Part shown: positions 44,158-62,543 of the stretch, in pieces
How the letters are laid out: every line of letters begins with the position of its first letter
How positions within the stretch are numbered: position 1 is the first letter of the stretch
Source of the DNA: Bacteroidaceae bacterium
GTDB taxonomy: Bacteria; Bacteroidota; Bacteroidia; Bacteroidales; Bacteroidaceae
Direction of reading: 5' to 3'
Assembly: GCA_017542145.1 (NCBI GenBank)
Contig: JAFXXQ010000037.1
Span: forward strand, 1 to 64,000
Length of the DNA stretch: 64,000 nucleotides
Program-made: the position numbers and the translations under genes
The notes under the pieces: model-generated
Database searches by the model: none
Told to the model about the DNA's origin: nothing
The model's input: only the letters and a program-made list of their open reading frames with translations

Positions 44158-45069
44158 ATGAAGGGAATTGTTCTCGCCGGAGGATCCGGCACACGATTAT
44201 ATCCGATCACGAAGGGAGTGAGCAAGCAGCTCCTTCCCATCTATGACAAACCGATGGTCTATTATCCCATTTCCGCACTGATGTTGGCGGGGATTCGGGA
44301 TATTCTTCTTATATCTACGCCGCAGGACCTTCCGGGGTTTAAGCGTCTCTTGGGTGACGGCTCCGACTTTGGCATTCGTTTCACTTATGCCGAACAGCCT
44401 TCCCCCGACGGCTTGGCTCAGGCTTTTATCATTGGAGAAGAGTTCATCGGCAACGATTGTGTCTGCATGGTACTTGGTGACAATATCTTCTATGGTGCTG
44501 GATTCACGTCGTTGTTGCACAATGCCGTAAAAGCCGCCGAAGAAGAAAACAAGGCCACCGTCTTTGGCTATTGGGTAAACGACCCGGAACGCTATGGTGT
44601 GGCAGAGTTTGACCAGAACGGCAACTGCCTCTCCATCGAAGAGAAACCTCAGAAGCCGAAAAGCAACTACGCTGTGGTTGGCCTCTACTTCTATCCCAAC
44701 AAAGTCGTTGATATCGCCAAACATATCAAACCCAGCGCCCGCGGTGAATTGGAGATTACGACCGTCAATCAGGAATTCCTGAAGGATGGCGAACTGAAGG
44801 TCCAAACCCTCGACCGCGGCTTTGCCTGGTTAGATACGGGTACCCACGACAGCCTCTCCGAAGCCAGCACCTTTGTTGAAGTCATCGAGAAACGCCAAGG
44901 TCTCAAAATTGCTTGTCTCGAGGATATTGCCTATCGTAAAGGTTGGATAACAGCGACTAAGATGCGTGAACTCGCTCAACCCATGCTGAAGAACCAGTAT
45001 GGCCAGTATCTTCTGAAGGTCATCGACGAAATGAAAGAATCCGTCTGTTCCGAAACCTTCTGTAAGTAG
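44158..45069 (+). CDS. rfbA: Glucose-1-phosphate thymidylyltransferase
   Basis: Makes dTDP-glucose from glucose 1-phosphate and dTTP, the entry to dTDP-rhamnose and related sugars. [20 protein letters not shown] carries the nucleotide loop, followed by [27 protein letters not shown] (metal Asp), [21 protein letters not shown] and [12 protein letters not shown]. 303 residues is the normal RmlA length. rfbB, rfbC and rfbD are not in this window, so they lie elsewhere or downstream. It is the first gene after the locus promoter. Confidence 0.97.
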
Positions 45070-45136: not shown

Positions 45137-46180
45137 ATGAAATATTCCCGCAACAGGATAAATATCGCTGGCAAGTCCTTATTAGCCGGTCCGGAAACAG
45201 GATTTCCCTATACTGATGCTAGCCTTGTTGTTGATGACTGGCGGAGGCTACATATGGCTCCGCTGGAAGAACTGGTCGGGGAGGTTACCCGTCTGCTCGC
45301 GCAAGCGGGAGTAGCGGCGGCGTTTTCTTCGCATAGACTTAAGCGAATGACGTCAATTGTTGCAAAGCTGCGCCACAATCCTGGTATGGGCTTAGGTGGA
45401 CTTCAGGATATTGGGGGAGCACGTTTTGTTTTTGAAGATACCCGTTCTCTTTTGATAGCGCAACAGGTTATTGCGAATGCTAGTTTCGAGCATTTCGTTG
45501 CTGATCGCGATCCGTATAACTACGTTGCACAACCCAAAGAGAGTGGATATCGGAGCATACATTTCGTTTACAAATATGTCAGCGATAATGCTGATTATGA
45601 TGGATTAAGAGTAGAACTCCAGATTCGGACCCGTTTGCAACATGACTGGGCGATGGCCGTCGAAACTGCCGAGCTTATTTCAAAGTCCTCGCTGAAGGCG
45701 AGTCTTGGAGACGAGAATTGGCTGGAGTTCTTTAAATTATGCAGTGCTATTTTCGCTCAAAAAGAGGGAATGCCAGTTGCATATCGATTTAAAGACTATA
45801 CTGAAAAAGACTATTGCATCCAATATGCTCAACTGAATCTTCAGTATAAGTTTTTAGAACAGTTGCAGGCGTTGGTGAGTGCCGTTAAGATTACGGAAGA
45901 ACATACCTTGAAGGAAGGATATGCCGTTCTCCTGATTCAGTTTGCTGAGAAACGAGTTCAGTTAAGGCATTTCTTGTCAAAGGAACTCGACGACGCGACG
46001 AAGTACTATTCAGAAGTGGAGAAATCGATTGACAATGCGAATTCTGCCGTTGTTCTTGTCGCAGTATCCGATATGAAAGAACTTCAGGAGGCCTATCCCA
46101 GCTATTTCTTGAATGCCAGCGAGTTCATCCAGTCCCTTCAGGACTTTAACGACACCTGCAAGGCAAAACACTATATATAA
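45137..46180 (+). CDS. RelA/SpoT-type synthetase-domain protein
   Basis: 347 residues, no hydrolase domain. The synthetase fold covers about 30-180: HRLKRMTSIVAKL (Arg/Lys for ATP), GGLQDIGGARFVF (the motif with catalytic Asp91), KESGYRSIHFVYKY and LRVELQIRTRLQHDWA. The C-terminal 165 residues are helical and unassigned (EEHTLKEGYAVLLIQFAEKRVQLRHF...). Small alarmone synthetases make (p)ppGpp; related toxSAS proteins make ppApp or pyrophosphorylate tRNA. A housekeeping role or a defence/toxin role cannot be decided from sequence. It lies in the polysaccharide locus between rfbA and a broken gene, 67 bp after rfbA. Confidence 0.85.
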   Translation: MKYSRNRINIAGKSLLAGPETGFPYTDASLVVDDWRRLHMAPLEELVGEVTRLLAQAGVAAAFSSHRLKRMTSIVAKLRHNPGMGLGGLQDIGGARFVFEDTRSLLIAQQVIANASFEHFVADRDPYNYVAQPKESGYRSIHFVYKYVSDNADYDGLRVELQIRTRLQHDWAMAVETAELISKSSLKASLGDENWLEFFKLCSAIFAQKEGMPVAYRFKDYTEKDYCIQYAQLNLQYKFLEQLQALVSAVKITEEHTLKEGYAVLLIQFAEKRVQLRHFLSKELDDATKYYSEVEKSIDNANSAVVLVAVSDMKELQEAYPSYFLNASEFIQSLQDFNDTCKAKHYI

Positions 46181-46189
46181 GGCTTTGTT

Positions 46190-46632
46190 ATGGCCAGAGC
46201 ATATAAGAAGACATATCTAAGCAATGCCATGCGCAACCTTGCTGTGATGATGGATTGCGGCGTGCGTAAGTACGGCTATTCCATCGAGGAGTTCTACGAC
46301 AAGTTCCTTGCGTGCGATGTGTCGCGTCAGTTCTCGAAGGGCAATCCCCGCTACCTAGTGGGTTTTCTGGGGCTGAATTGGCAGATATGGTGGTGGAAGC
46401 CTCCGGTGGCACCGTCCTGAGCGAGAACGACGGCACCTATACCGTGGGTCCTGAGTATTGGACTGGCTGGGTGCTGGCTTACTACCAATGGCTTTCGCGT
46501 CGCAGTTTTGCATGCATACATCAAAAGGGGTTGGGTGTCAATAAAATAATGGGAATGTATCATCCATTGCACGAGGCCGACCTCTCCAAGTTTGCCGATG
46601 TGGCCGATGGCATAGTGCGAGGCAGAGCGTAG
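46190..46632 (+). pseudogene. Frameshifted gene of a small conserved family (MARAYxKTYLSNAMRNL)
   Basis: Frame 1 from ATG 46190 reads MARAYKKTYLSNAMRNLAVM...SRQFSKGNPRYLVGF. It then drifts into LGLNWQIWWWKP, while frame 2 continues naturally with SGAELADMVVEASGG... to a stop at 46632. Adding one T in the run 46363-46366 restores a single protein of about 147 residues with the motifs GPEYWTGWVLAYYQWLS and MYHPLHEADLSKF. From memory this family commonly sits beside DUF3791/DUF3990 genes in gut bacteria, in toxin-antitoxin-like clusters; those genes are absent here. It is either a decayed gene or, less likely, a slippage site or sequencing error. Confidence 0.7.
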
Positions 46633-46778: not shown

Positions 46779-47009
46779 ATGGAAATTAATGATTTTATCA
46801 AATGTGTAGCAGAACAGTATGAAGAAGTAGATGCTCAAGAATTTACTCCTGAAACAAAGTTTAAGATGTTTGAAGAGTGGTCATCACTTACGTCTCTTTC
46901 TATCATTGCAGCCGTGGATGACGAATTTGGTATCACTTTGAAGGGTGATGACATCCGCAATGCTACGACTATTCAGGATTTGTTTGAAGCTGCAGAGGCA
47001 AAGGCATAA
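46779..47009 (+). CDS. Acyl carrier protein (first of two)
   Basis: 76 residues, acidic, four-helix ACP pattern. Aligned with the second ACP of the locus, EEWSSLTSLSIIAAVDDEFGI places the phosphopantetheine serine at Ser36 (W-S-S-L for the usual W-D-S-L). The missing Asp is seen in other dedicated ACPs. It opens the acyl module that continues with two SDRs, split transketolase, a second ACP, an AMP ligase and KAS III. It probably carries the acyl chain built by this module rather than serving fatty-acid synthesis. Confidence 0.9.
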   Translation: MEINDFIKCVAEQYEEVDAQEFTPETKFKMFEEWSSLTSLSIIAAVDDEFGITLKGDDIRNATTIQDLFEAAEAKA

Positions 47010-47073
47010 TGTTTTTTTGAGGATTTAAGTTTTTCGTTACAGTATTGCTTGCCAGAAAAAATTGAGTTAGATA

Positions 47074-47826
47074 ATGTACAATCCGTTTTCAATTTCAGGA
47101 AAGACGATACTCATCACTGGGGCGGGCAGTGGAATAGGACGTTCTACGGCAATAATTGCGTCGCAAATGGGAGCTACGGTAATACTTGTTGATATTAACG
47201 AGGAAGGTATAAAAGAGACGCTTTCGAGGATTGACGAACACAAGGCTGGTCATAGTTATTATGTTGTAGACTTGATGGATTCCAAAGAAGTAGAATCTCT
47301 TGTTGAAGATGTTGTTTGCTTAGATGGTCTTGTTAATAATGTTGGAATTTCAAACACTCGACCTCTTCATTTGATACGAGAGGAAGATTTCAATCTCGTT
47401 GTAGGGCTGAATACCAAAGCTCCAATGATATTAACGAATTTATTATATAAAAAGAAGAAATTCAATAAGGGGGCGTCTATTGTTTTCACTTCCTCGTTGG
47501 CTGGTTTATACACTTTTACTCCAGCAAATGGATTGTATTCTCTTTCAAAAAGTGCATTAACTTCGTATGCTAAAAGTTGTGCTGTTGAATTTGCTGTACG
47601 GGAAATCCGTTCAAATTGTGTCAACCCGTCAATGGTAAACACTCATTTAAAAGAAAGTCTTTCTTTCTCAGAGGATGAGTATAAGAAAGATGTTGAAAAA
47701 TATCCGTTGAAACGTTATGCAGAGCCAGAGGAAGTGGCAAAAGCCATAGTTTTCCTTCTCTCTGATGCTTCGTCATATATAACAGGTCATACTTTGCTTG
47801 TAGATGGAGGCCGGTCGTTGAAATAA
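47074..47826 (+). CDS. SDR-family oxidoreductase (FabG-like), first
   Basis: 250 residues, classical short-chain dehydrogenase. Cofactor loop TGAGSGIGRS, NNVGIS, catalytic Ser in FTSSLAG, YSLSK (Tyr and Lys of YxxxK), and C-terminal ITGHTLLVDGG. FabG-type enzymes reduce 3-oxoacyl-ACP; the location between ACP genes supports an acyl-ACP or ketose-like substrate. The coding sequence is more AT-rich than the left arm of the window. Confidence 0.93.
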   Translation: MYNPFSISGKTILITGAGSGIGRSTAIIASQMGATVILVDINEEGIKETLSRIDEHKAGHSYYVVDLMDSKEVESLVEDVVCLDGLVNNVGISNTRPLHLIREEDFNLVVGLNTKAPMILTNLLYKKKKFNKGASIVFTSSLAGLYTFTPANGLYSLSKSALTSYAKSCAVEFAVREIRSNCVNPSMVNTHLKESLSFSEDEYKKDVEKYPLKRYAEPEEVAKAIVFLLSDASSYITGHTLLVDGGRSLK

Positions 47827-47835
47827 CGTATCAAA

Positions 47836-48561
47836 ATGAATGTTATCATTACAGGTTGCAACCGAGGAATAGGCAAGGCAATGGTTGAAGTGTTTGCCAG
47901 TGCAGGGTATAACATTTGGGCTTGTGCCAGAAAAGCAACTCTTGAATACGAAGTCTGGCTGAAAGATACGGCAGAAGAAGCAGGCGTTTGGATTAAGCCC
48001 ATCTATTTCGAGTTGACGGATACAGAAGCCATCAATGCGGGCATTCAGACTATCATTGACGAGGGACAGTCTATTGATGTATTAGTCAACAATGCAGGAA
48101 TCTCAACCGTTGGTCTGCTGAGCATGAGCAAGGTGGAAGATATTGAACATCTGTTTGCCGTGAACTATTTCGCCATGCTTCGCATCATCCAAAAAGTGTC
48201 CAAAAAGATGGCCCGCCAACGGAAAGGTTGCATAATCAATATGGGATCGATAGCAGGTATTGAGCCACAGCCAGGAAAGATTGCATACGGCAGTAGCAAG
48301 GCTGCTGTGATGATGATGACGAAATGCTTGGCCAAGGAATTGGGGCCTATGGGGATTCGTGTAAATGCCATCGCTCCTGGTCCTATAGAGACAGAGATGA
48401 TTCATCAGTATAAGGATGATATGCTTGAGAAATTGGCATCTGAATCATCATTGAGACGACTGGGAAAGAAAGAGGAAATAGCCCAAGTGGCCTTATTCTT
48501 GGCCTCGGAACAAGCCTCCTATATCAATGGTGAAATCATCAAAGTGGATGGGGGACGATGA
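47836..48561 (+). CDS. SDR-family oxidoreductase (FabG-like), second
   Basis: 241 residues. TGCNRGIGKA, NNAGIS, NMGSIAG (Ser), YGSSK (Tyr/Lys), VNAIAPGPIET and YINGEIIKVDGG make a complete classical SDR. It follows the first SDR by 9 bp but differs clearly in sequence, so the two may do successive steps (for example, ketone reduction and a second hydroxyl adjustment) on the same ACP-bound chain. Confidence 0.93.
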   Translation: MNVIITGCNRGIGKAMVEVFASAGYNIWACARKATLEYEVWLKDTAEEAGVWIKPIYFELTDTEAINAGIQTIIDEGQSIDVLVNNAGISTVGLLSMSKVEDIEHLFAVNYFAMLRIIQKVSKKMARQRKGCIINMGSIAGIEPQPGKIAYGSSKAAVMMMTKCLAKELGPMGIRVNAIAPGPIETEMIHQYKDDMLEKLASESSLRRLGKKEEIAQVALFLASEQASYINGEIIKVDGGR

Positions 48562-48569
48562 CAATTTAT

Positions 48570-48604
48570 AGTTCATAGTTCATAGTTCATAATTCATAGT
48601 TCAT
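48570..48604. repeat. 7-bp tandem repeat directly before the transketolase start
   Basis: Five units of AGTTCAT (one reads AATTCAT), followed by AGTT and the ATG at 48609. It occupies the ribosome-binding region of the gene. Confidence 0.85.
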
Positions 48605-48608
48605 AGTT

Positions 48609-49436
48609 ATGAATAGAAGGATTTTGTCAGAGGAAGAAATAAAGGCACTGTGCAAGCGGATGCGGCTTCATGCGATGGATATGGCTCTTGCTGCTGGCAA
48701 TAGAGGAGCTCACATCAGTGGTAGTTTGTCTTGTATAGAGATTTATGCCGTCCTTTATGGAGCTATCCTGAACTATGATCTTGACAACCCTTTATGGAAC
48801 GAGCGTGACCGCTTTATTGCCGGTAAGGAACATGCCCGTTTAGCTGAATATCCTGCCCGTGCTGAAATGGGCTTCTATCCAACGGATGTGCTGAATAGCT
48901 ATGAGCAGAACGATGGCCTACTGGTAGGTCATCAATTGAAGAAAGAGTTAGGTGTGGAGTATGGTTCTATGAGTCTGGGCATGGAGATGTCGTTTGCTGT
49001 GGGTAAGGCCATTTTGGCTAAACAAACTCAACAGAGCTATCGTATCTATTGCTTATTGGGAGACGCAGAGTGTGAGGAGGGCCCTGTCTGGGAAGCTTTC
49101 ATCCCTGCATCTCATTATAAATTGGATAACTTGACCGTTATTATCGATCGTAACTATATGTCGGTGGATGGCAATACGGAAGAATTGATGGCCCAGCTTG
49201 ACATGCAGAAAAAGATGGAAGCCTTTGGTTGGGAATCCGTTACCGTAGATGGCCATGATATCCATCAACTTATCAATGCTTTATCTTATAGACCTATTGG
49301 TAAACCATATGCCATTATTGCTACGACTATAAAAGGCAAAGGAGTTTCTTTTATTGAAAACAATAAATCGTGGCATCAGGCTGTACTGAGTGAAGCACAG
49401 TATCAACAAGCCATTGAAGAAATACAAAAAAGCTGA
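48609..49436 (+). CDS. Transketolase N-terminal subunit (ThDP-binding)
   Basis: 275 residues, the PP half of a two-subunit transketolase. The ThDP motif is LLGDAECEEGPVWEAF...DNLTVIIDRN (about 150-182). GNRGAHISGSLSCIEIYAVLYG is the conserved opening, with GAHISGS. Transketolases move C2 ketol units; split forms in biosynthetic loci often act on carrier-bound or unusual acceptors. The partner subunit begins 3 bp after the stop. A 7-bp tandem repeat covers the translation start region. Confidence 0.94.
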   Translation: MNRRILSEEEIKALCKRMRLHAMDMALAAGNRGAHISGSLSCIEIYAVLYGAILNYDLDNPLWNERDRFIAGKEHARLAEYPARAEMGFYPTDVLNSYEQNDGLLVGHQLKKELGVEYGSMSLGMEMSFAVGKAILAKQTQQSYRIYCLLGDAECEEGPVWEAFIPASHYKLDNLTVIIDRNYMSVDGNTEELMAQLDMQKKMEAFGWESVTVDGHDIHQLINALSYRPIGKPYAIIATTIKGKGVSFIENNKSWHQAVLSEAQYQQAIEEIQKS

Positions 49437-49439
49437 AGA

Positions 49440-50420
49440 ATGGCCCTTAATCCTGCTTTGATAAAAGCCTACGCCCGAATGGGGCAGAAAGGTGCCGCTG
49501 CTGGTATCGGAATGATGGAGTTGGCCAAGAACGATTCCGATATGTGGGTTGTGGTGGCTGATAGTGTGGCCATTGCAAGCCTTGACCGTTTCTATAATAG
49601 TTATCCTGAGCGTGTCATTAATGCAGGCATCTCGGAACAGAGCATGATTGGCATTGCTGCGGGTCTTTCGTCTGAGGATGGGCGAGTCGTTTATGCCTGC
49701 ACCTACGCAGCATTTGTTTTGGTGAAGGCTATAGAGTTTGTGCGGCATAACTTGGCTTACCATCAGTTCAACGTGAAGCTGGTGGGCAACTCTGCTGGTT
49801 TTGCAATGGAAACTCTTTCCATATCCCATTGGGCTACGGAAGACATTGCTATGGCAAGAGCTCTCCCCAATTTGACCATCCTTTCAGCTGCAGATAGTCT
49901 GGAGGCTATAAAGATTGTCAAAGCAGCACACGATAGAAAAGGACCTGTTTATGTACGTTTATCGGGCCTTTTGAATTGTCCGATAGTCTATGAAAAGGAC
50001 TTTGAGTATCAAATAGGAAAAGCGAACAAGCTCCGTGAGGGTGAAGATGTGACATTAATTGCCACAGGAATGATGGTGCGTGAAACCCTTGATGCGGCCG
50101 AACTGCTTTCGGCCAAGGGCATTCATTGCAACGTCATCGATATGCACACGATAAAGCCATTGGATACAGAATGTCTGGATGAAGTTTTTGTGGATTCAAA
50201 ATTGATTGCTACCGTGGAGGAACATAGCATCATAGGTGGCTTGGGTGGTGCTGTAGCAGAATATCTTTCAGAAAAAGAGAATACACCTCGCCTTATCCGG
50301 ATTGGAATAAAAGACCAGTTTGGAAAATTGGGCGATTTACGTTATTGCTGGGAGCAACACGGTTTGACTGCGCCACAAATTGCTGATCGGATCCAATCAG
50401 AATTAAATAGGAATAATTAA
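49440..50420 (+). CDS. Transketolase C-terminal subunit
   Basis: 326 residues: pyrimidine-binding domain with the catalytic glutamate Glu66 in INAGISEQSMIGIAAGL, then the transketolase C-terminal domain (about 190-320, EGEDVTLIATGMMVRETLDAAELL). The pair 48609/49440 makes one full enzyme. It is sandwiched between ACP genes, which resembles the NapB/NapD-type enzymes of naphthyridinomycin biosynthesis that load a two-carbon glycolyl unit on an ACP. That parallel is an inference from gene context. Confidence 0.94.
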   Translation: MALNPALIKAYARMGQKGAAAGIGMMELAKNDSDMWVVVADSVAIASLDRFYNSYPERVINAGISEQSMIGIAAGLSSEDGRVVYACTYAAFVLVKAIEFVRHNLAYHQFNVKLVGNSAGFAMETLSISHWATEDIAMARALPNLTILSAADSLEAIKIVKAAHDRKGPVYVRLSGLLNCPIVYEKDFEYQIGKANKLREGEDVTLIATGMMVRETLDAAELLSAKGIHCNVIDMHTIKPLDTECLDEVFVDSKLIATVEEHSIIGGLGGAVAEYLSEKENTPRLIRIGIKDQFGKLGDLRYCWEQHGLTAPQIADRIQSELNRNN

Positions 50421-50451
50421 ATAGAAAACAAATAGTAAATTATAAATAAAC

Positions 50452-50688
50452 ATGTCAAATCTTGAAAAGTATAAGAATGCCTTTGTAGAAGGCCTTGAAG
50501 TCGATCTGAATGAAGTAGAGGGCTTGTCCATGGAAAAGTGTGACAAGTGGGATTCCATTGGTCAGATGAGCTTGATTGCCGTCCTGGAGGATGCATTTGA
50601 AATAGAGTTGGAACCAGAAGAAGTTATGGCATTTACTTCTTATGAGGCTGGCATGGAGATATTGAAGAATCACCAGATTGAACTTTGA
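50452..50688 (+). CDS. Acyl carrier protein (second of two)
   Basis: 78 residues with WDSIGQMSLIAVLEDAFEIELEPEEV; Ser35 in DSIG is the 4'-phosphopantetheine site. The stop codon overlaps the start of the AMP ligase gene (ATGA), so the two are translationally coupled and the ligase probably loads this carrier. Confidence 0.93.
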   Translation: MSNLEKYKNAFVEGLEVDLNEVEGLSMEKCDKWDSIGQMSLIAVLEDAFEIELEPEEVMAFTSYEAGMEILKNHQIEL

Positions 50689-52082
50689 TGCTTTTTGATA
50701 TTGATAAAAAGCCATCAGAGCATTTTGCTGCCATTGATGATAATGGTGGACAGTTGACTTACGGTGAGCTGGTATGGTTGCGCGGAGAACTTGCTTCCGT
50801 GTTGCCGGAGCGCGAGTTAGTGTTCTGCCTTTGTGAAAACAGAGTAGGAGCATTGGCTGGCTTTTTGTCGTTGTATGACTGCAAGGATGTCTGCCTGCTA
50901 CTTAGTGCCCATATTGATAATGCATTATTGCAGGTGCTTGATGAAACCTACGGCCCTTCCTATTACTGGATGCCGGAGCCGATGGCAACAGAAAGCGGTT
51001 TTGAAAGAATATATACATACAAAGGCTATATTCTTTGTAAAACCGGCAAGACTTCTCCATCTTTGCATTCCGATCTTTCCATGCTAATGACCACTTCCGG
51101 CACTACGGGAAGTCCCAAATTGGTTAGGCATAAATATGGCAATATCGAAAGTAATGCCCGTAATGTCGCAAAGGTCTTTGGTTGGACGGCAGAAGAGCGG
51201 GGTATCATAGATTTGCCCATGCAATATACGATGGGTTTGAATGTCATCAATAGTCATCTTTATGCCGGAGCAACTATTTTGTTGGTTGAGGCCAATCTGA
51301 TGAGCCCGCTTTTCTGGAAATTCATCAAGGAGAATAAAGGAACGAACTTTACTGGTGTCCCATTCAGTTATGAAGTTCTGAACCGACTTCGTTTCACCCG
51401 CATGGATTTACCTTATCTGACCACATTGGCAGAGGGTGGTGGTAAACTGTCTGACACCCTGTTCAAGACCTTTGCCGATTATGCTGCTGAAAAAGGCAAG
51501 CGTTTTTTTGCTACCTTTGGCACCACTGAGACTTCTGCTCGTTTAGCTTTTCTTCCTCCTGAAGAAGCCACCACGCATATTGGTAGCATTGGCCATGCCA
51601 TTCCCGAAGGCCGGCTGATTCTCATGGATGAGAACGGTCAAGAGATAACGGAGTCCGATGTCGAAGGAGAACTCCATTACGAGGGTCCCAATGTCACCAT
51701 GGGCTACGGTACTTGCATCGAAGACCTGATGCAGGGTGATGAATTCTGTGGCGTGTATGCGACAGGTGACTTGGCTAAGAAGGATAGAGACGGCTATTAC
51801 TATATTGTAGGCCGTAAGAAACGCTTTTTAAAACTGTTTGGCCTTCGTGTCAGCCTTGACCAGAGTGAGAAAATTATCAAAGAGCATTTTGGGATAGATT
51901 GTGCCTGCACGGGCGATGATTCCAAAATGCGCATCTATATCACCGATGATAGCCTCAAAGAAGACGTGAAGCATCTTATCTCAGAAAAGACGGGATTGAT
52001 ATCCACCTCGTTCGAGGTGAAGGTGTTAGATGCCATTCCCCGTTTTGAATCTGGAAAAATCAACTATAGACAATTAGGTTAA
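50685..52082 (+). CDS. AMP-binding acyl ligase (ANL superfamily)
   Basis: 465 residues, shorter than typical acyl-CoA synthetases. Motifs: MTTSGTTGSPK (about 135-145, ATP loop), FATFGTTETSARLAFL, YATGDLAKKDRDGYYYIVGRKKRFLKLFG, and a C-terminal PRFESGKINYRQ with the catalytic lysine. The start overlaps the ACP gene. The expected reaction is adenylation of a carboxylic (or amino) acid and transfer to the ACP thiol. Its downstream neighbour is KAS III, 4 bp away. Confidence 0.93.
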   Translation: MMLFDIDKKPSEHFAAIDDNGGQLTYGELVWLRGELASVLPERELVFCLCENRVGALAGFLSLYDCKDVCLLLSAHIDNALLQVLDETYGPSYYWMPEPMATESGFERIYTYKGYILCKTGKTSPSLHSDLSMLMTTSGTTGSPKLVRHKYGNIESNARNVAKVFGWTAEERGIIDLPMQYTMGLNVINSHLYAGATILLVEANLMSPLFWKFIKENKGTNFTGVPFSYEVLNRLRFTRMDLPYLTTLAEGGGKLSDTLFKTFADYAAEKGKRFFATFGTTETSARLAFLPPEEATTHIGSIGHAIPEGRLILMDENGQEITESDVEGELHYEGPNVTMGYGTCIEDLMQGDEFCGVYATGDLAKKDRDGYYYIVGRKKRFLKLFGLRVSLDQSEKIIKEHFGIDCACTGDDSKMRIYITDDSLKEDVKHLISEKTGLISTSFEVKVLDAIPRFESGKINYRQLG

Positions 52083-52086
52083 TCGT

Positions 52087-53145
52087 ATGGCTTTCTTAAG
52101 AATTGAGAATGTTAATATAGCAGGTATTGCAGCATGTGTGCCCCCAAAGAGGGTTGACAACATGGAGTCAGACCTTGTGGAAGACAAGCATGAGCTGGAA
52201 AAATATATAGAGACAACAGGTGTTCGTTACCGTTATGTGGCAGAGGATGGCATTTGTTCTTCGGACCTATGCAAGGCTGCTGCTGAAAAGCTGATAGAGG
52301 AAATGGGTGTTGATAAATCGGAAATAGATTGTCTGATTATGGTTACACAGACTCCTGATTACATCTTCCCCGCTACAGCCTGTATCTTGCAAGACCGCCT
52401 TGGATTGCCTACTGACTGTTTGAGTTTCGACATCACGATGAGCTGTCCGGGATGGATTTATGGCCTTTCGGTGATGTCGTCTATTCTTAGTGCAGGAAAG
52501 ATGAAGAAGGGACTTCTATTAGTAGGTGAAACCTCTACGAAAGCAAAATCTCCCTATGATCGTGTGAATCTGCTTGCCGGCGATGCTGGCACGGCAACCA
52601 TTCTTGAATACAAGGAAGGAACGAGCCCTTTGCTGTTCAGTATGCATACCGATGGAAGCAACTATCGTTCGCTCATTATTCCTGACGGTGGCTATCGCAA
52701 TCCTGTTACCCCCGAATCATTCGTGTATCATGAATGCAAGGATGGAATGTTGCGCAATCGTTTGAACGCAAATATGGAGGGTGAAGACATACTCTCTTTT
52801 GCCATGCATACTGCACCGAAGTGCATCAAAGGCTTGTTGGAGCATTTCGAGATTCCAAAAGAGAATATTGATTTCTTTTTGATACATCAAGCCAATCAAA
52901 TGATTAATAAACTCATTCAGAAACGATTAAAGGTAGATGATGAGCATTGCCCATATAATATTGCTGAATTTGGTAACTCTTCCTCTACGACAATTCCTTT
53001 AATGATAGTTAATAAGTTAAAGGATTCTTTGGGTGGCAAGAAGGTTGTTGCCTGTGGGTTTGGTACAGGCTTGGCATGGGGCGCAATGTTCTTTGAACCG
53101 GATGTCGATATTTGGATAAATGAGATAGTTCATTACCAGGCATAA
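52087..53145 (+). CDS. 3-oxoacyl-ACP synthase III-like ketosynthase
   Basis: 352 residues, thiolase fold. The catalytic triad is Cys120 (ITMSCPGWIYG), His267 (FFLIHQAN) and Asn297 (FGNSSSTTIPLM). KAS III enzymes condense an acyl-CoA with malonyl-ACP; relatives in biosynthetic loci also form esters or amides by acyl transfer. Divergence from housekeeping FabH (MSCPGW instead of AACAGF-type) suggests a dedicated substrate. It is the last gene of the acyl module, 15 bp before wzx. Confidence 0.93.
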   Translation: MAFLRIENVNIAGIAACVPPKRVDNMESDLVEDKHELEKYIETTGVRYRYVAEDGICSSDLCKAAAEKLIEEMGVDKSEIDCLIMVTQTPDYIFPATACILQDRLGLPTDCLSFDITMSCPGWIYGLSVMSSILSAGKMKKGLLLVGETSTKAKSPYDRVNLLAGDAGTATILEYKEGTSPLLFSMHTDGSNYRSLIIPDGGYRNPVTPESFVYHECKDGMLRNRLNANMEGEDILSFAMHTAPKCIKGLLEHFEIPKENIDFFLIHQANQMINKLIQKRLKVDDEHCPYNIAEFGNSSSTTIPLMIVNKLKDSLGGKKVVACGFGTGLAWGAMFFEPDVDIWINEIVHYQA

Positions 53146-57060: not shown

Positions 57061-57657
57061 ATGAAATTTTTATTTGATTTAGATGGTACTGTAACTTCGC
57101 AGGAGACGCTTCCTGTCATTGCTAATCATTTTGGGATTAGTAAGGAAATGGAAGAGCTGACGAAGCAGACAGTTCAAGGCAATATTCCATTTGTGGAAAG
57201 TTTTATTCGTAGGGTTAATATATTAGGGGATCTACCTGTTTCTGAAGTGGATAATCTTTTGGGCCAAGTCCCTTTGTACCCTTTGTTACATCAGTTTATT
57301 CAAGAACATCTAGAGAATTGTGCTGTAATTACAGGTAACCTGGACTGTTGGTGCAAACAGCTAAATGCCAAGGTTGGATGTCAGGCCTTTTGTTCACATG
57401 CCATTGTTGAAGATGATAGGGTAGTAAAGCTAGAGAAAATACTTCGTAAAGAAGTAGTGGTGGATCATTTCAGATCTTTAGGAGAGACAGTGGTTTTTGT
57501 GGGAGATGGCAACAATGATTTGGAGGCAATGCGTCATGCTAATTTCTCCATTGCTGTGGGCTTGACACATAATCCCGCCAAAAGTTTGTTGTCAATAGTT
57601 GATTATATTTTTTATAACGAGAAAGCATTATGTCGCCAGCTAAGTCAGTTGTTATAA
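57061..57657 (+). CDS. HAD-superfamily phosphatase (SerB-like)
   Basis: 198 residues. Motif I FDLDGTVTSQET (nucleophile Asp in DxDGT), motif II in VITGNLD, Lys near LEKILRKE, motif IV VFVGDGNNDLEAM. The compact cap is HAD-IB type, as in phosphoserine phosphatase. It could dephosphorylate an amino-alcohol or sugar phosphate. The 3' end overlaps the next gene by 28 bp. Confidence 0.88.
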   Translation: MKFLFDLDGTVTSQETLPVIANHFGISKEMEELTKQTVQGNIPFVESFIRRVNILGDLPVSEVDNLLGQVPLYPLLHQFIQEHLENCAVITGNLDCWCKQLNAKVGCQAFCSHAIVEDDRVVKLEKILRKEVVVDHFRSLGETVVFVGDGNNDLEAMRHANFSIAVGLTHNPAKSLLSIVDYIFYNEKALCRQLSQLL

Positions 57658-58262
57658 GTTGCGCGGGTATCGGTTCCCGTCTGGGCCTTGGTCTAACGAA
57701 AGCTTTAGTCCAGATAAATGGTCGGTCTTTAATTTCATGGCAACTGGAGTTGTTTAAAGATGTTGAAGACCTTAGAATCGTTATTGGTTTTCAAGCTAAT
57801 GATATCATAGAAGAAGTAAGAAAATATCGTGATGATGTTACTTTTGTTTTTAATCATCGATATTTTGAAACAAAGACAGGTGCCAGTTTTTTCTTAGGTG
57901 CCCGTCATGCCAATGAATTTGTTTTAGAATGGGATGGTGACTTGCTTGTTCATCCTGATGATGTAAAGATGATTTTGGCAACGGAGGGTGAGTTCCTCTG
58001 TTATTCAGAAAAGACTTCAGACGATGCCGTTTTTGTGAAAGTCGATGAAGAGGATAATGTGTTGAGTTTTTCGCGTGAATATGGGGACTACGAATGGACA
58101 GGTCCAGCTTGTATGTGCAAAAAGCACCTTACATATAGTTCCCAGAATGTTTTCAATATGTTTGAGCCTCTCCTTCCTATGAAAGGTATAAAAGTGAGAG
58201 CTTATGATATTGATACTTATGATGATTACCAACGAGTGTCTAGTATTGTAAAAGACTGGTAA
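57630..58262 (+). CDS. Nucleotidyltransferase (LicC/sugar-nucleotidyltransferase-like)
   Basis: 210 residues. The N-terminal SVVISCAGIGSRLGLGLTKALVQINGRSLI is a GxGxR(x)nPK-type NTP loop with Lys in TKAL. FVLEWDGDLLVHPDD provides the metal-binding Asp pair. Size and motif order fit cytidylyltransferases of the LicC/IspD-like group. It overlaps the phosphatase gene and precedes the nucleotidyltransferase-PLP fusion, so two distinct nucleotide-activated groups may be made here. Confidence 0.85.
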   Translation: MSPAKSVVISCAGIGSRLGLGLTKALVQINGRSLISWQLELFKDVEDLRIVIGFQANDIIEEVRKYRDDVTFVFNHRYFETKTGASFFLGARHANEFVLEWDGDLLVHPDDVKMILATEGEFLCYSEKTSDDAVFVKVDEEDNVLSFSREYGDYEWTGPACMCKKHLTYSSQNVFNMFEPLLPMKGIKVRAYDIDTYDDYQRVSSIVKDW

Positions 58263-58353
58263 ATTTATTTTACTAATTGTAATTGCAATTTGTTTTGATA
58301 CTTATCGCAAATAAGAATAAAAAAAAGTATTATAGTATTAATTGTTATTATAT

Positions 58354-60168
58354 ATGCAAGCCATTATTTTAGCTGCAGGTATGGGAAAACGACTTGGTGA
58401 ATATACCAAAAACAATACCAAATGTATGGTGAAAGTTAATGGTACATCACTGATTGATCGCGTAATGAGACAACTTTCTGTATTGCCTCTGAAGCGAGTT
58501 GTGATAGTCGTTGGATATGAAGGTAAGAAACTCATGAGTTATTTGGGAAAAAAACAAAATGGATTAATGATTGAATATATCAATAACCCCATTTATGATA
58601 AGACTAATAATATTTATTCATTATTCTTAGCAAAAGAAAAATTGCAAGAAGACGATACGATTCTTATGGAGAGTGATCTTATCTTTGAGGAGGGGATGTT
58701 GAACCTTTTAATCAATAACCCCAATCCCAATATTGCTCTTGTGGCCAAATACGAAAGTTGGATGGATGGCACAATGGTTCGTCTTGATGAAGAGAACAAC
58801 ATACTGAATTTCATACCTAAGAAGGCATTTAAATATGACGATGCGAAAGATTACTATAAAACGGTGAACATTTATAAGTTGAGTAAGGAGTTCTTAAGAG
58901 ACAAATATGTTCCTTTTTTAGAGGCTTATAGTAAAGCAGAAGGCAATAATGAGTATTATGAGAATGTGTTGCGTATCATCTCCTTTCTGAATAGTCATGA
59001 GTTGAGAGCTCTGCCTATAGGAGATATGAAATGGTACGAAATTGATGATAAGCAGGATTTGGACATAGCAGAAGCTATATTTGCTGAAGATAAAGATTTA
59101 TTAACGAAATACTATGGTCGTTATGGTGGTTTCTGGCGTTTCCCTCAAATGCTTGATTTCTGTTATTTGGTCAATCCTTTTTTTCCTTCTCAGAAACTAC
59201 TTGATGAGATGCAGGCGAACTTTAGAACTCTTTTGACAGAATATCCTTCAGGCTTGAAAGTCAATTCTTTGCTTGCTAGTAAATGTTGGGGGATTAGAGA
59301 AGAGTATATTATTCCAGGAAATGGAGCTGCAGAATTAATTAAAGCACTAATGGAGAATTTAGAGGGGAAGTTGGGAATAATAAGACCAACTTTTGAGGAG
59401 TATCCTAATAGGCTTCCTCAAGACAGATTGGTTGCTTTTATTCCGCAAAATGAGGATTTCCGATATGGGATAGATGATCTTATTTCCTTTTTTGAAGACA
59501 AAGAAATAGCCACATTGTTGTTGATTAATCCAGATAATCCTTCTGGCAACTTCATTGAAAAAGAAGATGTGCTGAAGTTGGCTCATTGGTCAGAAAAGAA
59601 AGGTCTCTGTTTGATAGTAGATGAAAGTTTCGTTGATTTTAGTAAAGGATGGAATCATAGTTCATTGCTTGACGATAGTATTCTGAAAGCATATCCTCAT
59701 CTTGTCGTAATGAAGTCAATAAGCAAAAGCTATGGAGTTCCAGGTCTTCGTTTGGGTATTATGGCATCTTCAGATAAGGACTTGATAATGAAGATGAAGA
59801 AACGGGTTAGCATTTGGAATCTAAATTCGTTTGCAGAGTTTTTCATGCAAATATATGAAAAACACGAGAATGACTATAAAAAGGCTTGTGAAAAATTTCA
59901 GGAGGTTCGTTCTTTGTTTGAGAAAGGACTCAATTCTATTCCATATTTGCATGTCATGCCTTCTCAAGCAAATTTCTTTTTCTGTAAAGTTTTACCCCCA
60001 TATACAGCCAAAGAAATTGTAATGCAAATGTTAAAGCATCATAATATATTGATGAGTGCATGTATTGCGAAGAAGGGTATAGAGGAGAATCGCTATATGA
60101 GAATTGCTGTTCGAAGTAGGGCTGACAATGATAGATTGTTAGAGGCATTAAGGACAATAATCATTTAA
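58354..60168 (+). CDS. Fusion of LicC-type nucleotidyltransferase and class I/II PLP aminotransferase
   Basis: 604 residues from ATG 58354 (an in-frame TTG at 58342 adds four codons). Residues 1-235: MQAIILAAGMGKRLGEYTKNNTKCMVKVNG, the LicC-like NTP loop, and a metal site in ILMESDLIF. Residues about 255-604: a HisC/CobD-like PLP fold with the cofactor region GNGAAELIKAL, NPDNPSG, DESFVDFS, and Schiff-base lysine in KSISKSYGVPGLRLG. A nucleotidyltransferase-aminotransferase fusion is known in phosphonate tailoring (PntC), but no PEP mutase is here. A CDP-ethanolamine-, serinol- or related amino-alcohol route is more likely. That product is inferred. Confidence 0.88.
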   Translation: MQAIILAAGMGKRLGEYTKNNTKCMVKVNGTSLIDRVMRQLSVLPLKRVVIVVGYEGKKLMSYLGKKQNGLMIEYINNPIYDKTNNIYSLFLAKEKLQEDDTILMESDLIFEEGMLNLLINNPNPNIALVAKYESWMDGTMVRLDEENNILNFIPKKAFKYDDAKDYYKTVNIYKLSKEFLRDKYVPFLEAYSKAEGNNEYYENVLRIISFLNSHELRALPIGDMKWYEIDDKQDLDIAEAIFAEDKDLLTKYYGRYGGFWRFPQMLDFCYLVNPFFPSQKLLDEMQANFRTLLTEYPSGLKVNSLLASKCWGIREEYIIPGNGAAELIKALMENLEGKLGIIRPTFEEYPNRLPQDRLVAFIPQNEDFRYGIDDLISFFEDKEIATLLLINPDNPSGNFIEKEDVLKLAHWSEKKGLCLIVDESFVDFSKGWNHSSLLDDSILKAYPHLVVMKSISKSYGVPGLRLGIMASSDKDLIMKMKKRVSIWNLNSFAEFFMQIYEKHENDYKKACEKFQEVRSLFEKGLNSIPYLHVMPSQANFFFCKVLPPYTAKEIVMQMLKHHNILMSACIAKKGIEENRYMRIAVRSRADNDRLLEALRTIII

Positions 60169-60179
60169 TAAGTAGAAAA

Positions 60180-61301
60180 ATGAAAGTATGTATAGTAGGC
60201 GGTGGTCATATTGGAACCACGTTGACTTGTTACATCAAGAAAACCCATCCTCAGTATCAAGTTTGTTTGTATACAAGAAGACCTCAAAACTTTTTGGATG
60301 AAATTAAATGTAATGATATAGAGAGCAATGAGTCTTACATAGTTAGGCCAGATGTTATCTCTGATAATCCTTCGTTTTCGGCCAAGGATGCTGACATAGT
60401 GTTCATTGCTTTGCCTCATTTTGCAGTAGAAAAGGCTTTTTCGGACATTGCTCCTTTTGTCTCTTCTAATGCAATGATAGGTGTAATTCCAGGTGGTGGT
60501 GGATGTGAGTTCTTTTTCAAGAAATATTTTTCGGACAAGCAAACGCTTTTTGGATTCCAACGTGTTCCCTTTACTGCCAAACTTCATGAATATGGAAAAG
60601 AGACTAACCTTAAAAGTTGGAAGCCATTTAGCGTAGTTGGTACTCTTCAAAATGGACGAATAGACAAAGTCTGTGAGATGATAGAATCATGTGGGCTGAA
60701 AACCAGGCAAGCAACAAATTATCTGGAGATTGCGCTTACACCAACGAATCCTATATTGCATACTTCAAGGACATTTGAATTATTTGGTTCATACAAACGA
60801 GATCACAAGTTCAAGGAGAAATCGAAATTTTATGTGGGTTGGTCTGACAAGGCATCAAAAACGATGCTTTCAATGGACATGGAACTCCATTGTTTGTTGG
60901 ATGCTATTAGTGGCTTAGACACTTCGGCTATCCGTCCCCTATCAGAGCATTATGAATCACCTACTGTTGAGGCCATGACAGCAAAGATTAATACTATTGC
61001 AACATTCCAAAGTGTATATGCTCCTATGAAGCAAATCGAAGATTACTATGTTGCCGATACCTCTTCTAGAATGTTCACAGAAGATTTTCCATGGGGATTA
61101 GCTGTTATTCGTTCTTATTTTGACTATTTTGATATCCCTGCCCCTACTATGGATATTGTTCTTAGTTGGTTTGCTAATTATATGGGGCTGGAGTGGTATA
61201 AGGATGGCCATTTCATTGGTTCTGATTTGAAAAAGACTGGTGTCATACAAAATTATGGTATTTCTACTGTAAAAGAATTGTTGTCGGTTTACAACCAATA
61301 A
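60180..61301 (+). CDS. Opine/octopine-dehydrogenase family oxidoreductase
   Basis: 373 residues. Rossmann start MKVCIVGGGHIGTTLTCYI (GxGxxG). The C-terminal octopine/nopaline dehydrogenase domain has NPILHTSRTFELF, where the conserved histidine of this family lies in 'hp(t/s)'. Such enzymes join a 2-oxo acid to the amino group of an amino acid by NAD(P)H-dependent reduction. Next to an alanine/saccharopine-dehydrogenase-like enzyme, it suggests an opine such as an N-(carboxyalkyl) amino acid as a polysaccharide substituent. It lies 11 bp behind the fusion gene. Confidence 0.87.
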   Translation: MKVCIVGGGHIGTTLTCYIKKTHPQYQVCLYTRRPQNFLDEIKCNDIESNESYIVRPDVISDNPSFSAKDADIVFIALPHFAVEKAFSDIAPFVSSNAMIGVIPGGGGCEFFFKKYFSDKQTLFGFQRVPFTAKLHEYGKETNLKSWKPFSVVGTLQNGRIDKVCEMIESCGLKTRQATNYLEIALTPTNPILHTSRTFELFGSYKRDHKFKEKSKFYVGWSDKASKTMLSMDMELHCLLDAISGLDTSAIRPLSEHYESPTVEAMTAKINTIATFQSVYAPMKQIEDYYVADTSSRMFTEDFPWGLAVIRSYFDYFDIPAPTMDIVLSWFANYMGLEWYKDGHFIGSDLKKTGVIQNYGISTVKELLSVYNQ

Positions 61302-61325
61302 AACTCATTTTAATATCATTGAAAA

Positions 61326-62543
61326 ATGATTATTGGACTTATAAAAGAGACAAAGATACCTGAAGACAACAGGGTGGCTTTGTCACCAACCCAGGTGGCA
61401 AAACTAAATGCGGAGTTCCCTGAGTCAGAGATTGTAGTTCAGAGTAGTGAGATAAGGGCCTTTACGGATGATGAGTATAGGCAGGCTGGAGTCAAGGTAG
61501 TTGATGATTTGTCCGACTGCGATGTGCTGTTTGGTATTAAAGAAGCCCAAATAGATTCGTTAATACCCAACAAGCATTATTTCTTCTTTGCGCACATTGC
61601 TAAAAAGCAGGAGTACAACCGCCCGTTGTTGCAGGCGATGCTTGCCAAGAACCTGACATTCTCAGACTATGAATACTTGGTTGATGAAAATGGTGAGCGT
61701 GTTTGTGCATTTGGTTGGTGGGCTGGTGTCGTAGGAGTCTACTATACCTTGCGTGGATATATGCTGAAGATGGGACAAAATACCTTGCCAAAGCCCGAGC
61801 GCACGTTTACGCTCGCTGAGATGCGCGCCATACTTGATACTGTACAATTGCCCAAGGTGAAAGTATTAATTACTGGGAAAGGAAGGGTTGCACAGGGAGC
61901 TCTTTACACTATGCATGAATGCGGTGCCCAGGAGCTAACTTTGGAGGAGTTCTTGAGTGATGAGCCTGTGGAAATGCTCTCCTTCTATCGTGCCTGTGTC
62001 AATGAGTTGGTGAAAAGAAAGGACGGGAAAGCTTTCGACCGTAAAGATTTCCGTAACAATCCTGAAGCCTACGAAAGTGATTTTATAAAGTATGCTAAGC
62101 ACACCGATATCTTTATTCCCTGTCATTTCTGGGATCCTCATGCACCCGTATATCTTGAACAAGAGGATTTTGTAAAGTATCATTTGCCTATTAAGATGAT
62201 AGGAGACATTACATGTGATATCTGCGGTAGCGTCAAGTCGACCGTGAGACCCGCTACACATGCAGAGCCTTATTACGACTTCAATCGTGTGATATGTCGT
62301 GAAGAGGCTCCCTTCTCTTCGCAAGATAATATCACAGTTATGGCTGTGGATACCTGCCCGAATGCATTGGCTCTCGATGCCAGTGAGTATTTTGGCGACA
62401 TGCTTACAGAGTATGTATTCAGACCTTTGCTGAGGGGCGAAGGTGATACATCAGATATCATTAGAAAAGCCACAATTGTTCATAACGGGAAGTTGACAGA
62501 GAAGTTCTCATATTTGGAAGGGTTTTCGAAAGGAGAAGAATAA
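61326..62543 (+). CDS. Alanine-dehydrogenase/saccharopine-dehydrogenase-like oxidoreductase
   Basis: 405 residues. MIIGLIKETKIPEDNRVALSPTQV is the AlaDH/PNT/Lys1 N-terminal signature; LPKVKVLITGKGRVAQGALYTM is the NAD-binding loop; HAEPYYDFN and DNITVMAVDTCPNALALDASEYFG belong to the catalytic part. Members catalyse reversible reductive amination or opine-type condensation with lysine. It is 24 bp behind the opine-dehydrogenase-like gene, and the two may act in sequence. Confidence 0.85.
   Translation: MIIGLIKETKIPEDNRVALSPTQVAKLNAEFPESEIVVQSSEIRAFTDDEYRQAGVKVVDDLSDCDVLFGIKEAQIDSLIPNKHYFFFAHIAKKQEYNRPLLQAMLAKNLTFSDYEYLVDENGERVCAFGWWAGVVGVYYTLRGYMLKMGQNTLPKPERTFTLAEMRAILDTVQLPKVKVLITGKGRVAQGALYTMHECGAQELTLEEFLSDEPVEMLSFYRACVNELVKRKDGKAFDRKDFRNNPEAYESDFIKYAKHTDIFIPCHFWDPHAPVYLEQEDFVKYHLPIKMIGDITCDICGSVKSTVRPATHAEPYYDFNRVICREEAPFSSQDNITVMAVDTCPNALALDASEYFGDMLTEYVFRPLLRGEGDTSDIIRKATIVHNGKLTEKFSYLEGFSKGEE

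Follow-up and report, generated by a model that had tools for sequence, protein, structure and literature searches.

A movable split-transketolase gene triad joined to an acyl carrier protein/AMP ligase cassette in a Bacteroidaceae surface-glycan locus

We analyzed positions 1–64000 of a 213-kb contig (C36, JAFXXQ010000037.1) from a Bacteroidaceae genome that is 88.8% complete; this stretch of 64,000 nucleotides is called the window below. Within a polysaccharide locus it holds an eight-gene acyl module at 46779–53145, with all open reading frames on the plus strand, encoding two acyl carrier proteins (ACP1 and ACP2), two short-chain dehydrogenases/reductases (SDR1 and SDR2), the N- and C-terminal subunits of a split transketolase (TKN and TKC), an AMP-forming ligase (AMPL) and a condensing enzyme of the 3-ketoacyl-ACP synthase III type (KAS III). 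The cassette is real and well defined, and its transketolases are a distinct subfamily. Our best reading, unproven and offered tentatively, is that the module may well be a composite acyl-ACP line that supplies the surface polysaccharide with a short hydroxylated acyl group of an unusual kind, with the transketolase adding a two-carbon (C2) unit to an aldehyde. The window version is the least complete of all.

The closest solved relatives of TKN and TKC are both chains of the split transketolase from Carboxydothermus hydrogenoformans (6yak, 6yaj), and 6yaj is also the best fold match of the predicted TKC model (mean pLDDT 88.2). The cassette proteins share subunit split, fold and catalytic residues with this enzyme; in contrast to it, they lack the His, Asp and Arg of the sugar-phosphate site. 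A DXS-type enzyme was ruled out, i.e., TKN reached 203 bits to split transketolase compared with 30–35 bits to DXS chains, and TKC 224 bits compared with at most 97.

As reference for the substrate site we used the xylulose 5-phosphate site modelled for human transketolase, i.e., His37, His110, Arg318, Ser345, Glu366, His416, Asp424, Gln428 and Arg474 (PMC8016368). Residues were counted in 19 cassette TKCs from 18 loci and in 61 controls (27 from the window's order, 30 from Streptomyces-genus genomes, one each from Listeria, Sinorhizobium and Pantoea, and an annotated apulose-4-phosphate transketolase). The catalytic Glu366 and a Gln or His at position 428 were found in 19/19 and 61/61, respectively. 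Arg474 occurred in none of the cassette TKCs (Lys in two), whereas 58 of the 61 controls had it and the remaining three had Lys. His416 and Asp424 were likewise absent from all 19, compared with 36/61 and 21/61 controls that kept them, and Ser345 was found in 9/19 and 38/61. In the window TKC, Glu366 is kept and the His416, Asp424 and Arg474 columns read S/L/L; the least certain block of its model, residues 121–130, covers the Asp424 column, with the His416 column next to it. His416, Asp424 and Arg474 are treated here as residues of the sugar-phosphate site. On the TKN side, 16 cassette rows all kept the Asn and three His (SGH, KGH and WHG columns), and 15 of them the Asp (Asn in L112). The window TKN has all His, Asp and Asn columns, and its GDG motif reads GDA.

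The 16 cassette TKCs known when the tree was built formed, together with L026, a single clade of 17 rows (support 100/99). In three cases we saw the residue pattern before reading the gene neighbourhood; two of them, L026 and L176, proved to belong to cassettes (L138 and L221), and the third, L177, did not. L026 was shifted from control to cassette once its neighbourhood had been read. Outside the counts stand L176 and L177, both without all three residues, and L180, which has all three. A second divergent split-transketolase clade from the window's order (seven rows) also lacks His416 and Asp424, with Arg (six) or Lys (one) at position 474; no cassette genes were recognised in three of its neighbourhoods (L139, L140, L141; TKC rows L044, L036, L033). 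A phylum-wide transketolase search matched 304 of 395 genomes with a profile that does not separate the kinds, and no further cassette transketolases were recognised; the 29 best other loci read H/D/R in 28 cases and S/L/R in one.

The cassette was found again in close relatives. A search with the AMP ligase matched eight of 150 related genomes, the window's own included, one of them (G097) with a partial match of 34%. The nearest cassettes come from the window's own genus and family and from genomes labelled Bacteroidales, Bacteroidia and Muribaculaceae, which makes the window Bacteroidales-like. A genome of the same genus, G016, has SDR2-TKN-TKC-ACP2-AMPL-KAS in identical order at 85–97% identity, with an additional KAS and SDR between ACP1 and SDR1; this conserved order argues that the module is not an accident of assembly. 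A chance gene cluster was ruled out by the shared order in the second genome together with cassettes in several phyla. Four relatives (G011, G048, G090, G019) carry ACP1-(KAS)-SDR1-SDR2-AMPL-ACP2-KAS without transketolase, and in G037 the contig stops inside the ligase. Parabacteroides distasonis likewise has KAS-type cassettes that lack a transketolase, two in number.

A scan of a genome collection with seven aligned AMP ligases as query was analyzed for the best 80 of 488 confirmed stretches. Six of these loci are shorter than 6 kb (L054, L075, L086, L109, L113, L118); others are cut, and genes missing from such loci carry little weight. ACP-SDR-AMP-ligase cassettes proved common in glycan loci across many phyla; the first-pass annotation had called a complete acyl line with two ACPs and a two-subunit transketolase unusual for a glycan locus, and the ACP-SDR-AMP-ligase part of it is not rare. 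Tetronate-type and KAS-type glycan acyl lines were already known. What is new is the SDR-TKN-TKC add-on with a transketolase of a distinct subfamily. A transketolase pair stood beside ACP and AMP ligase in 13 of the 80 loci (L057, L059, L061, L066–L069, L077, L080, L083, L087, L088, L112), the hosts being five Clostridia-type bacteria (including L077, Selenomonadaceae), Dickeya, Erwinia, Pantoea, Brevinematales, Bryobacterales, 'Deltaproteobacteria', Aeromonadales and Planctomycetia; L090, with transketolase matches of 21–26%, was not counted. Searches with transketolase queries added four cassettes. L138, from the window's taxonomic order, reads ACP1-KAS-SDR1-KAS-SDR2-TKN-TKC-ACP2-AMPL plus a fused LuxE-LuxC frame. 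L221 shares a contig with the L066 cassette and reads PglD-ACP2-AMPL-luxE-luxC-TKN-TKC-SDR-SDR, with weak ACP and ligase matches. L212 and L218 are on Rhizobium plasmids. Together with the window and G016 this gives 19 transketolase-cassette loci. An Escherichia coli locus with a known O-antigen was sought via the Dickeya SDR-transketolase-ligase DNA, with no match at the sensitivity used.

Gene trees, in which L212, L218 and L221 are absent, point to a mixed origin of the module. For 15 of the 16 TKN genes in the scan and window set, the recognised gene immediately upstream is an SDR, and likewise in L138; the Rhizobium loci have it elsewhere, and L221 has its SDRs downstream of TKC. The SDR tree (60 rows, only SDRs above 150 residues from transketolase, lux or KAS loci) gathered all 15 TKN-adjacent SDRs in a single clade of 22 (100/100); its members stem from transketolase loci in 21 cases, the exception being L072. 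Transketolase loci also have six SDRs outside this clade, among them window SDR1, which belongs to an ACP1/KAS-linked set of 11 rows (100/99). The ligase tree has 53 rows, with frames below 300 residues and loci L093 and higher lacking lux genes left out; here the window AMPL sits in a set of 14 (100/99) made up of itself, ten ligases from KAS-type loci, its sister and two unclassed ones. On this tree the transketolase trait changes nine times, six of the changes being forced by well-supported branches. The window KAS III groups, with moderate to weak support (93/90), with ACP1-linked KAS and not with the KAS that follow ACP2 in transketolase-less loci. As AMPL goes with KAS-type ligases, SDR2 goes with the SDRs of transketolase loci and the trait changes nine times, SDR-TKN-TKC appears to be a movable add-on. 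On the evidence of these groupings the window module is a composite, in which the triad was joined to a Bacteroidales KAS-type cassette (ACP1, SDR1 and the AMPL type) plus KAS III.

The first-pass annotation had named the eight genes with their order, coordinates and families, all of which were borne out by the open reading frames and by Pfam matches above the family cut-offs (Table 1). The ACP serines are present in the alignment, where ACP1 stands with 16 other ACP1-type proteins; the WDS motif of ACP2 is common to ACP2-type proteins of many loci. The Cys-His-Asn triad of KAS was kept in 21 of 21 rows, i.e., the window KAS III and 20 others. AMPL has as closest solved relatives an oxalate-CoA ligase (92 bits) and a malonate-CoA ligase (74 bits), a resemblance that is compatible with a small acid as substrate, without identifying the acid.

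Table 1. Genes of the acyl module and the gene that follows it (window coordinates).
Feature	Position	Strand	Evidence
ACP1, carrier protein of the KAS/SDR1 side	46779..47009	+	PF00550, 24.9 bits (cut-off 20.8); Ser in WSSL motif
SDR1, ketoreductase-type SDR of the Bacteroidales KAS-type cassette	47074..47826	+	PF13561; in the ACP1/KAS-associated SDR set
SDR2, transketolase-partner SDR	47836..48561	+	PF13561; in the transketolase-locus SDR clade
TKN, N-terminal (thiamine diphosphate, ThDP) subunit of split transketolase	48609..49436	+	PF00456; best PDB match 6yak
TKC, C-terminal subunit of split transketolase, altered sugar-phosphate site	49440..50420	+	PF02779/PF02780; best PDB match 6yaj
ACP2, carrier protein adjoining the AMP ligase	50452..50688	+	PF00550, 21.5 bits (cut-off 20.8); Ser in WDSI
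AMPL, AMP-forming acid:ACP ligase	50685..52082	+	PF00501; TTG start overlaps ACP2 stop, ATG directly after
KAS III, FabH-like condensing enzyme	52087..53145	+	PF08545/PF08541; Cys-His-Asn kept
Polysacc_synt (flippase-type) gene	starts 53161		follows KAS III

LuxE and LuxC produce aldehydes in bioluminescence. Genes of the LuxE/LuxC acyl-reductase type are present in 17 of the 19 transketolase cassettes, and only the window and G016 are without them. In the scan, LuxE and/or LuxC occurred in 13/13 transketolase loci compared with 17/67 others (Fisher's exact test, 3.8e-7, uncorrected for relatedness and cut loci); in Dickeya oryzae, for instance, the two genes after the ligase are named LuxE and LuxC by Pfam. 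A hexapeptide acyltransferase (NAT/PglD) was found in seven and a DegT aminotransferase in five of the 13 loci, which fits a transfer onto an amino sugar.

Among the genes of Vibrio cholerae O1, RfbM is an alcohol dehydrogenase and RfbO an acyltransferase. The rfbK-rfbL-rfbM-rfbN-rfbO set (wbeK-O) resembles the base cassette, i.e., a carrier protein and an AMP ligase serve to place a short hydroxyacyl group on an amino sugar: activation of 2,4-dihydroxybutanoate is ascribed to RfbL/WbeL, with RfbK as the putative carrier, and perosamine bears tetronate as its acyl group (PMC12208996, PMC3441752). RfbN carries a LuxE domain (PMC4772473), and the set shares with most relatives of the window a LuxE/LuxC-type reductase (one fused frame in L138), a likeness drawn by description and not by sequence. 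No transketolase is mentioned in the available parts of these sources; the window differs further by its lack of LuxE/LuxC and by the presence of KAS III, SDRs and a second ACP. The second precedent is azinomycin biosynthesis, where the two-protein transketolase AziC5/C6 is reported to extend a semialdehyde by two carbons (PMC9570651). AziC3-AziC4-AziC5/C6 is like the cassette in its two-protein transketolase and its aldehyde from a reduced carboxyl group, again by description and not by sequence; it differs in using a kinase/reductase route in place of LuxE/LuxC and in serving no glycan. A scan of 295 Streptomyces-genus genomes for an AziC5/C6-like pair matched 87; 30 loci were read, with no ArgC motif in the flanks covered, and Arg474 was present in 29 of them and Lys in one.

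A Dickeya cassette with tktA-tktB has been described (PMC4522980, PMC7575072). It has the same transketolase-ligase-SDR-ACP set, in the same order as L067 (Dickeya oryzae) and nearly that of L068–L069 (Pantoea, Erwinia), and as described differs from the window by having LuxE/LuxC and no KAS III; a lipid-sugar component was proposed, and the available parts give no mechanism for the transketolase. Enterobacteriaceae and Aeromonas islands with fatty-acid-like genes were read as a possible lipid-sugar part (PMC4875605, PMC7874193). The Aeromonas group II flagellin islands (acp-fabG-AMP ligase-luxE-luxC) correspond to the base cassette and are described, in the parts available, without transketolase or KAS III (PMC7874193). 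In openly licensed papers we found no functional study of a transketolase cassette and no account of the transketolase's role.

The LuxE/LuxC partners and the AziC5/C6 precedent suggest C2 addition to an aldehyde rather than glycolyl loading. By its family and its pairing with ACP2, AMPL would adenylate a small acid and load it on ACP2. In most relatives, LuxE/LuxC would reduce the carboxyl group to the aldehyde, in the manner of the tetronate genes of V. cholerae O1. The split ThDP transketolase would then move a two-carbon ketol to this aldehyde intermediate and not to a sugar phosphate, as its residue pattern suggests, and SDR2, given its clade and its co-occurrence with the pair, may reduce the newly formed ketone. 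KAS III, ACP1 and SDR1, with families and active sites as expected for it, could add or tailor another two-carbon unit by Claisen condensation and ketoreduction; in the window this KAS side probably adds a malonyl-derived unit. A hexapeptide N-acyltransferase would finally transfer the group to an amino sugar. The gene order of L221, ligase-LuxE-LuxC-TKN-TKC-SDR, matches the proposed order of reactions, and L138, having both KAS and LuxE/LuxC, indicates that the two sides can coexist.

Several points weigh against C2 addition to an aldehyde. The aldehyde-making step is missing in the window itself: LuxE/LuxC were not found in the last 20 kb of the window or in C36:60001–80000, a search that did not extend to other aldehyde makers. 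LuxC had no match in the window genome or in G016, both less than 90% complete, and the single LuxE match in the window genome was below cut-off and on another contig. No acyltransferase was recognised within the eight-gene module; the nearest hexapeptide candidate is a PglD about 19 kb downstream that adjoins another ACP. Among the residues, Arg474 alone divides cassettes from controls cleanly, as His416 and Asp424 also vary among controls. A basic residue stands one position from Arg318 in 16 of 19 cassette TKCs and nine keep Ser345, so that sugar-phosphate binding is altered but may persist; two have Lys at position 474. The TKN His110 column has His in 12 of 16 rows and differs in L061, L066, L080 and L087, not in the window. 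A Dickeya pair, L177/L222, combines an SDR with a transketolase pair that lacks all three residues, without ACP, ligase or cassette. To our knowledge, neither a product nor a substrate nor a mutant has been described for any of the transketolase cassettes.

The same residues bear on the possibility that the transketolase supplies the glycan with a precursor, a free ketose or sugar (phosphate), and sits in an acyl operon through operon packing. The basic residue near Arg318, the retained Ser345, the split transketolase as closest solved structure and the Dickeya authors' naming of TktA/TktB as 'sugar biosynthetic proteins' (PMC7575072) are in its favour. We consider it unlikely, however, because Arg474, His416 and Asp424 are gone in 19/19, ACP and AMP ligase accompany the pair in several phyla with LuxE/LuxC in most loci, and the genome has other full-length transketolase-C-type frames. 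The latter, of 643 and 674 residues and above the transketolase-C cut-off, are presumably housekeeping transketolases, which would make the TKN/TKC pair extra.

Less likely again is that the acyl line forms a 3-hydroxyacyl group by ordinary KAS III/ketoreductase chemistry, with the transketolase as a passenger captured by recombination. The grouping of window AMPL and SDR1 with transketolase-less KAS-type loci would suit it, as would the missing LuxE/LuxC and a plain PglD-ACP-SDR-KAS set in the same locus. Against a passenger, TKN and TKC are open and 95–97% identical to those of G016, at least as conserved as their neighbours (85–95%), and SDR2 is of the transketolase type, so that it arrived or was exchanged together with the pair.

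Naphthyridinomycin NapB/NapD feed a carrier protein by transketolase chemistry and contain a lipoyl domain. By analogy with them, the first-pass annotation had suggested that the transketolase places a C2 unit on an ACP. The neighbouring ACP and the altered sugar-phosphate site would agree with a glycolyl-ACP that is then transferred to sugar, yet neither TKN nor TKC has a lipoyl domain by Pfam, and LuxE/LuxC of the relatives suggest reduction to aldehydes; we regard this route as improbable and the analogy as weak. What stands of the suggestion is not the glycolyl loading but the genetic link, seen in several phyla, between the transketolase and a cassette of ACP, AMP ligase and SDR, together with the loss of phosphate-site residues. 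The same annotation held that action of the pair only on free sugar phosphates would contradict it; the residue loss speaks against such action without excluding it. Its further proposal, transfer of the acyl group to the sugar by KAS III, lost ground to the kept condensing-enzyme triad and the nearby hexapeptide acyltransferases. Finally, pyruvate dehydrogenase/transketolase-like enzymes have been proposed to form two-carbon branched sugars in some antibiotics, and a thymidylyltransferase-like gene near the module and a phosphate site that could suit a keto-sugar would allow C2 addition to a nucleotide keto-sugar here, but the recurring partners of the cassette are acyl enzymes and we find this very improbable.

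The GC content is about 58% near 38 kb and 36–44% from 44 kb onward, a drop that resembles a horizontally exchanged glycan locus. Upstream of the module lie the thymidylyltransferase-like gene (44158–45069, named from its sequence), a RelA/SpoT-domain protein between this gene and the module (45137–46180) and, just 5' of the module, two overlapping short frames (46190–46632; 76 and 106 residues) that may be one frameshifted gene; the first of them had no NCBIfam match at 1e-10. A repeat search gave nothing notable. On the other side, 57061–60168 encodes a HAD (SerB-like) protein, a nucleotidyltransferase and a nucleotidyltransferase fused to a CobD/HisC-like pyridoxal phosphate enzyme, which could yield a cytidine diphosphate-activated amine (ethanolamine- or aminopropanol-like) for downstream LicD transferases. 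An octopine-dehydrogenase-type protein beside an alanine-dehydrogenase-type protein (60180–62543) perhaps makes an opine-like or carboxyalkyl amino substituent.

Beyond the window the locus goes on to encode three LicD proteins, a second acyl set (PglD-ACP-SDR-KAS III) and a bacterial sugar transferase. The LicD genes (C36:65642–70646, L006:5642–10646) surround a PhnW/AepZ-like aminotransferase and a fusion of TagD-like cytidylyltransferase and Gfo/Idh-type domains, which would give the locus a second group of genes for phospho-linked substituents. The simpler PglD-ACP-SDR-KAS III set (C36:72230–74872) is minimal and fits an N-acylation of the 3-hydroxybutyryl type. At C36:80002–81489 (L007:2–1489) a DegT aminotransferase frame has a DUF559 nuclease-like domain in mid-frame.

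Flagellin of Aeromonas piscicola AH-3 carries an unexplained 102 Da moiety and a 376.14 Da pseudaminic acid derivative (PMC7874193). We computed 102.032 for a dihydroxybutyryl residue and 376.148 for pseudaminic acid that bears an acetyl and a dihydroxybutyryl group, one of each. The AH-3 masses equal these values, and a dihydroxybutyryl group is what the island's base, tetronate-like cassette would make; the match is one of arithmetic, and other compositions fit too.

The analysis provides a defined gene set, SDR-TKN-TKC on an ACP/AMP-ligase cassette, and a distinct transketolase subfamily for acyl substituents of surface glycans in Bacteroidales, Clostridia, rhizobia and plant-associated enterobacteria. 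If C2 extension is true, it would connect carrier-protein biosynthesis with transketolase chemistry and with reductases of the bioluminescence type, and help in reading glycan structures from genomes. A further possibility, doubtful at present, is that an ACP line lengthens its chain by transketolase, placing C2 ketols on ACP-linked aldehydes with dedicated SDR reduction, beside or instead of malonyl Claisen extension, to give polyhydroxylated acyl groups. A Clostridiaceae locus (L057:865–5738) has two transketolase pairs, a FabA-like dehydratase, an AMP ligase and LuxE/LuxC; with such a locus this would, if true, be a third way of building chains on ACPs beside fatty-acid and polyketide logic.

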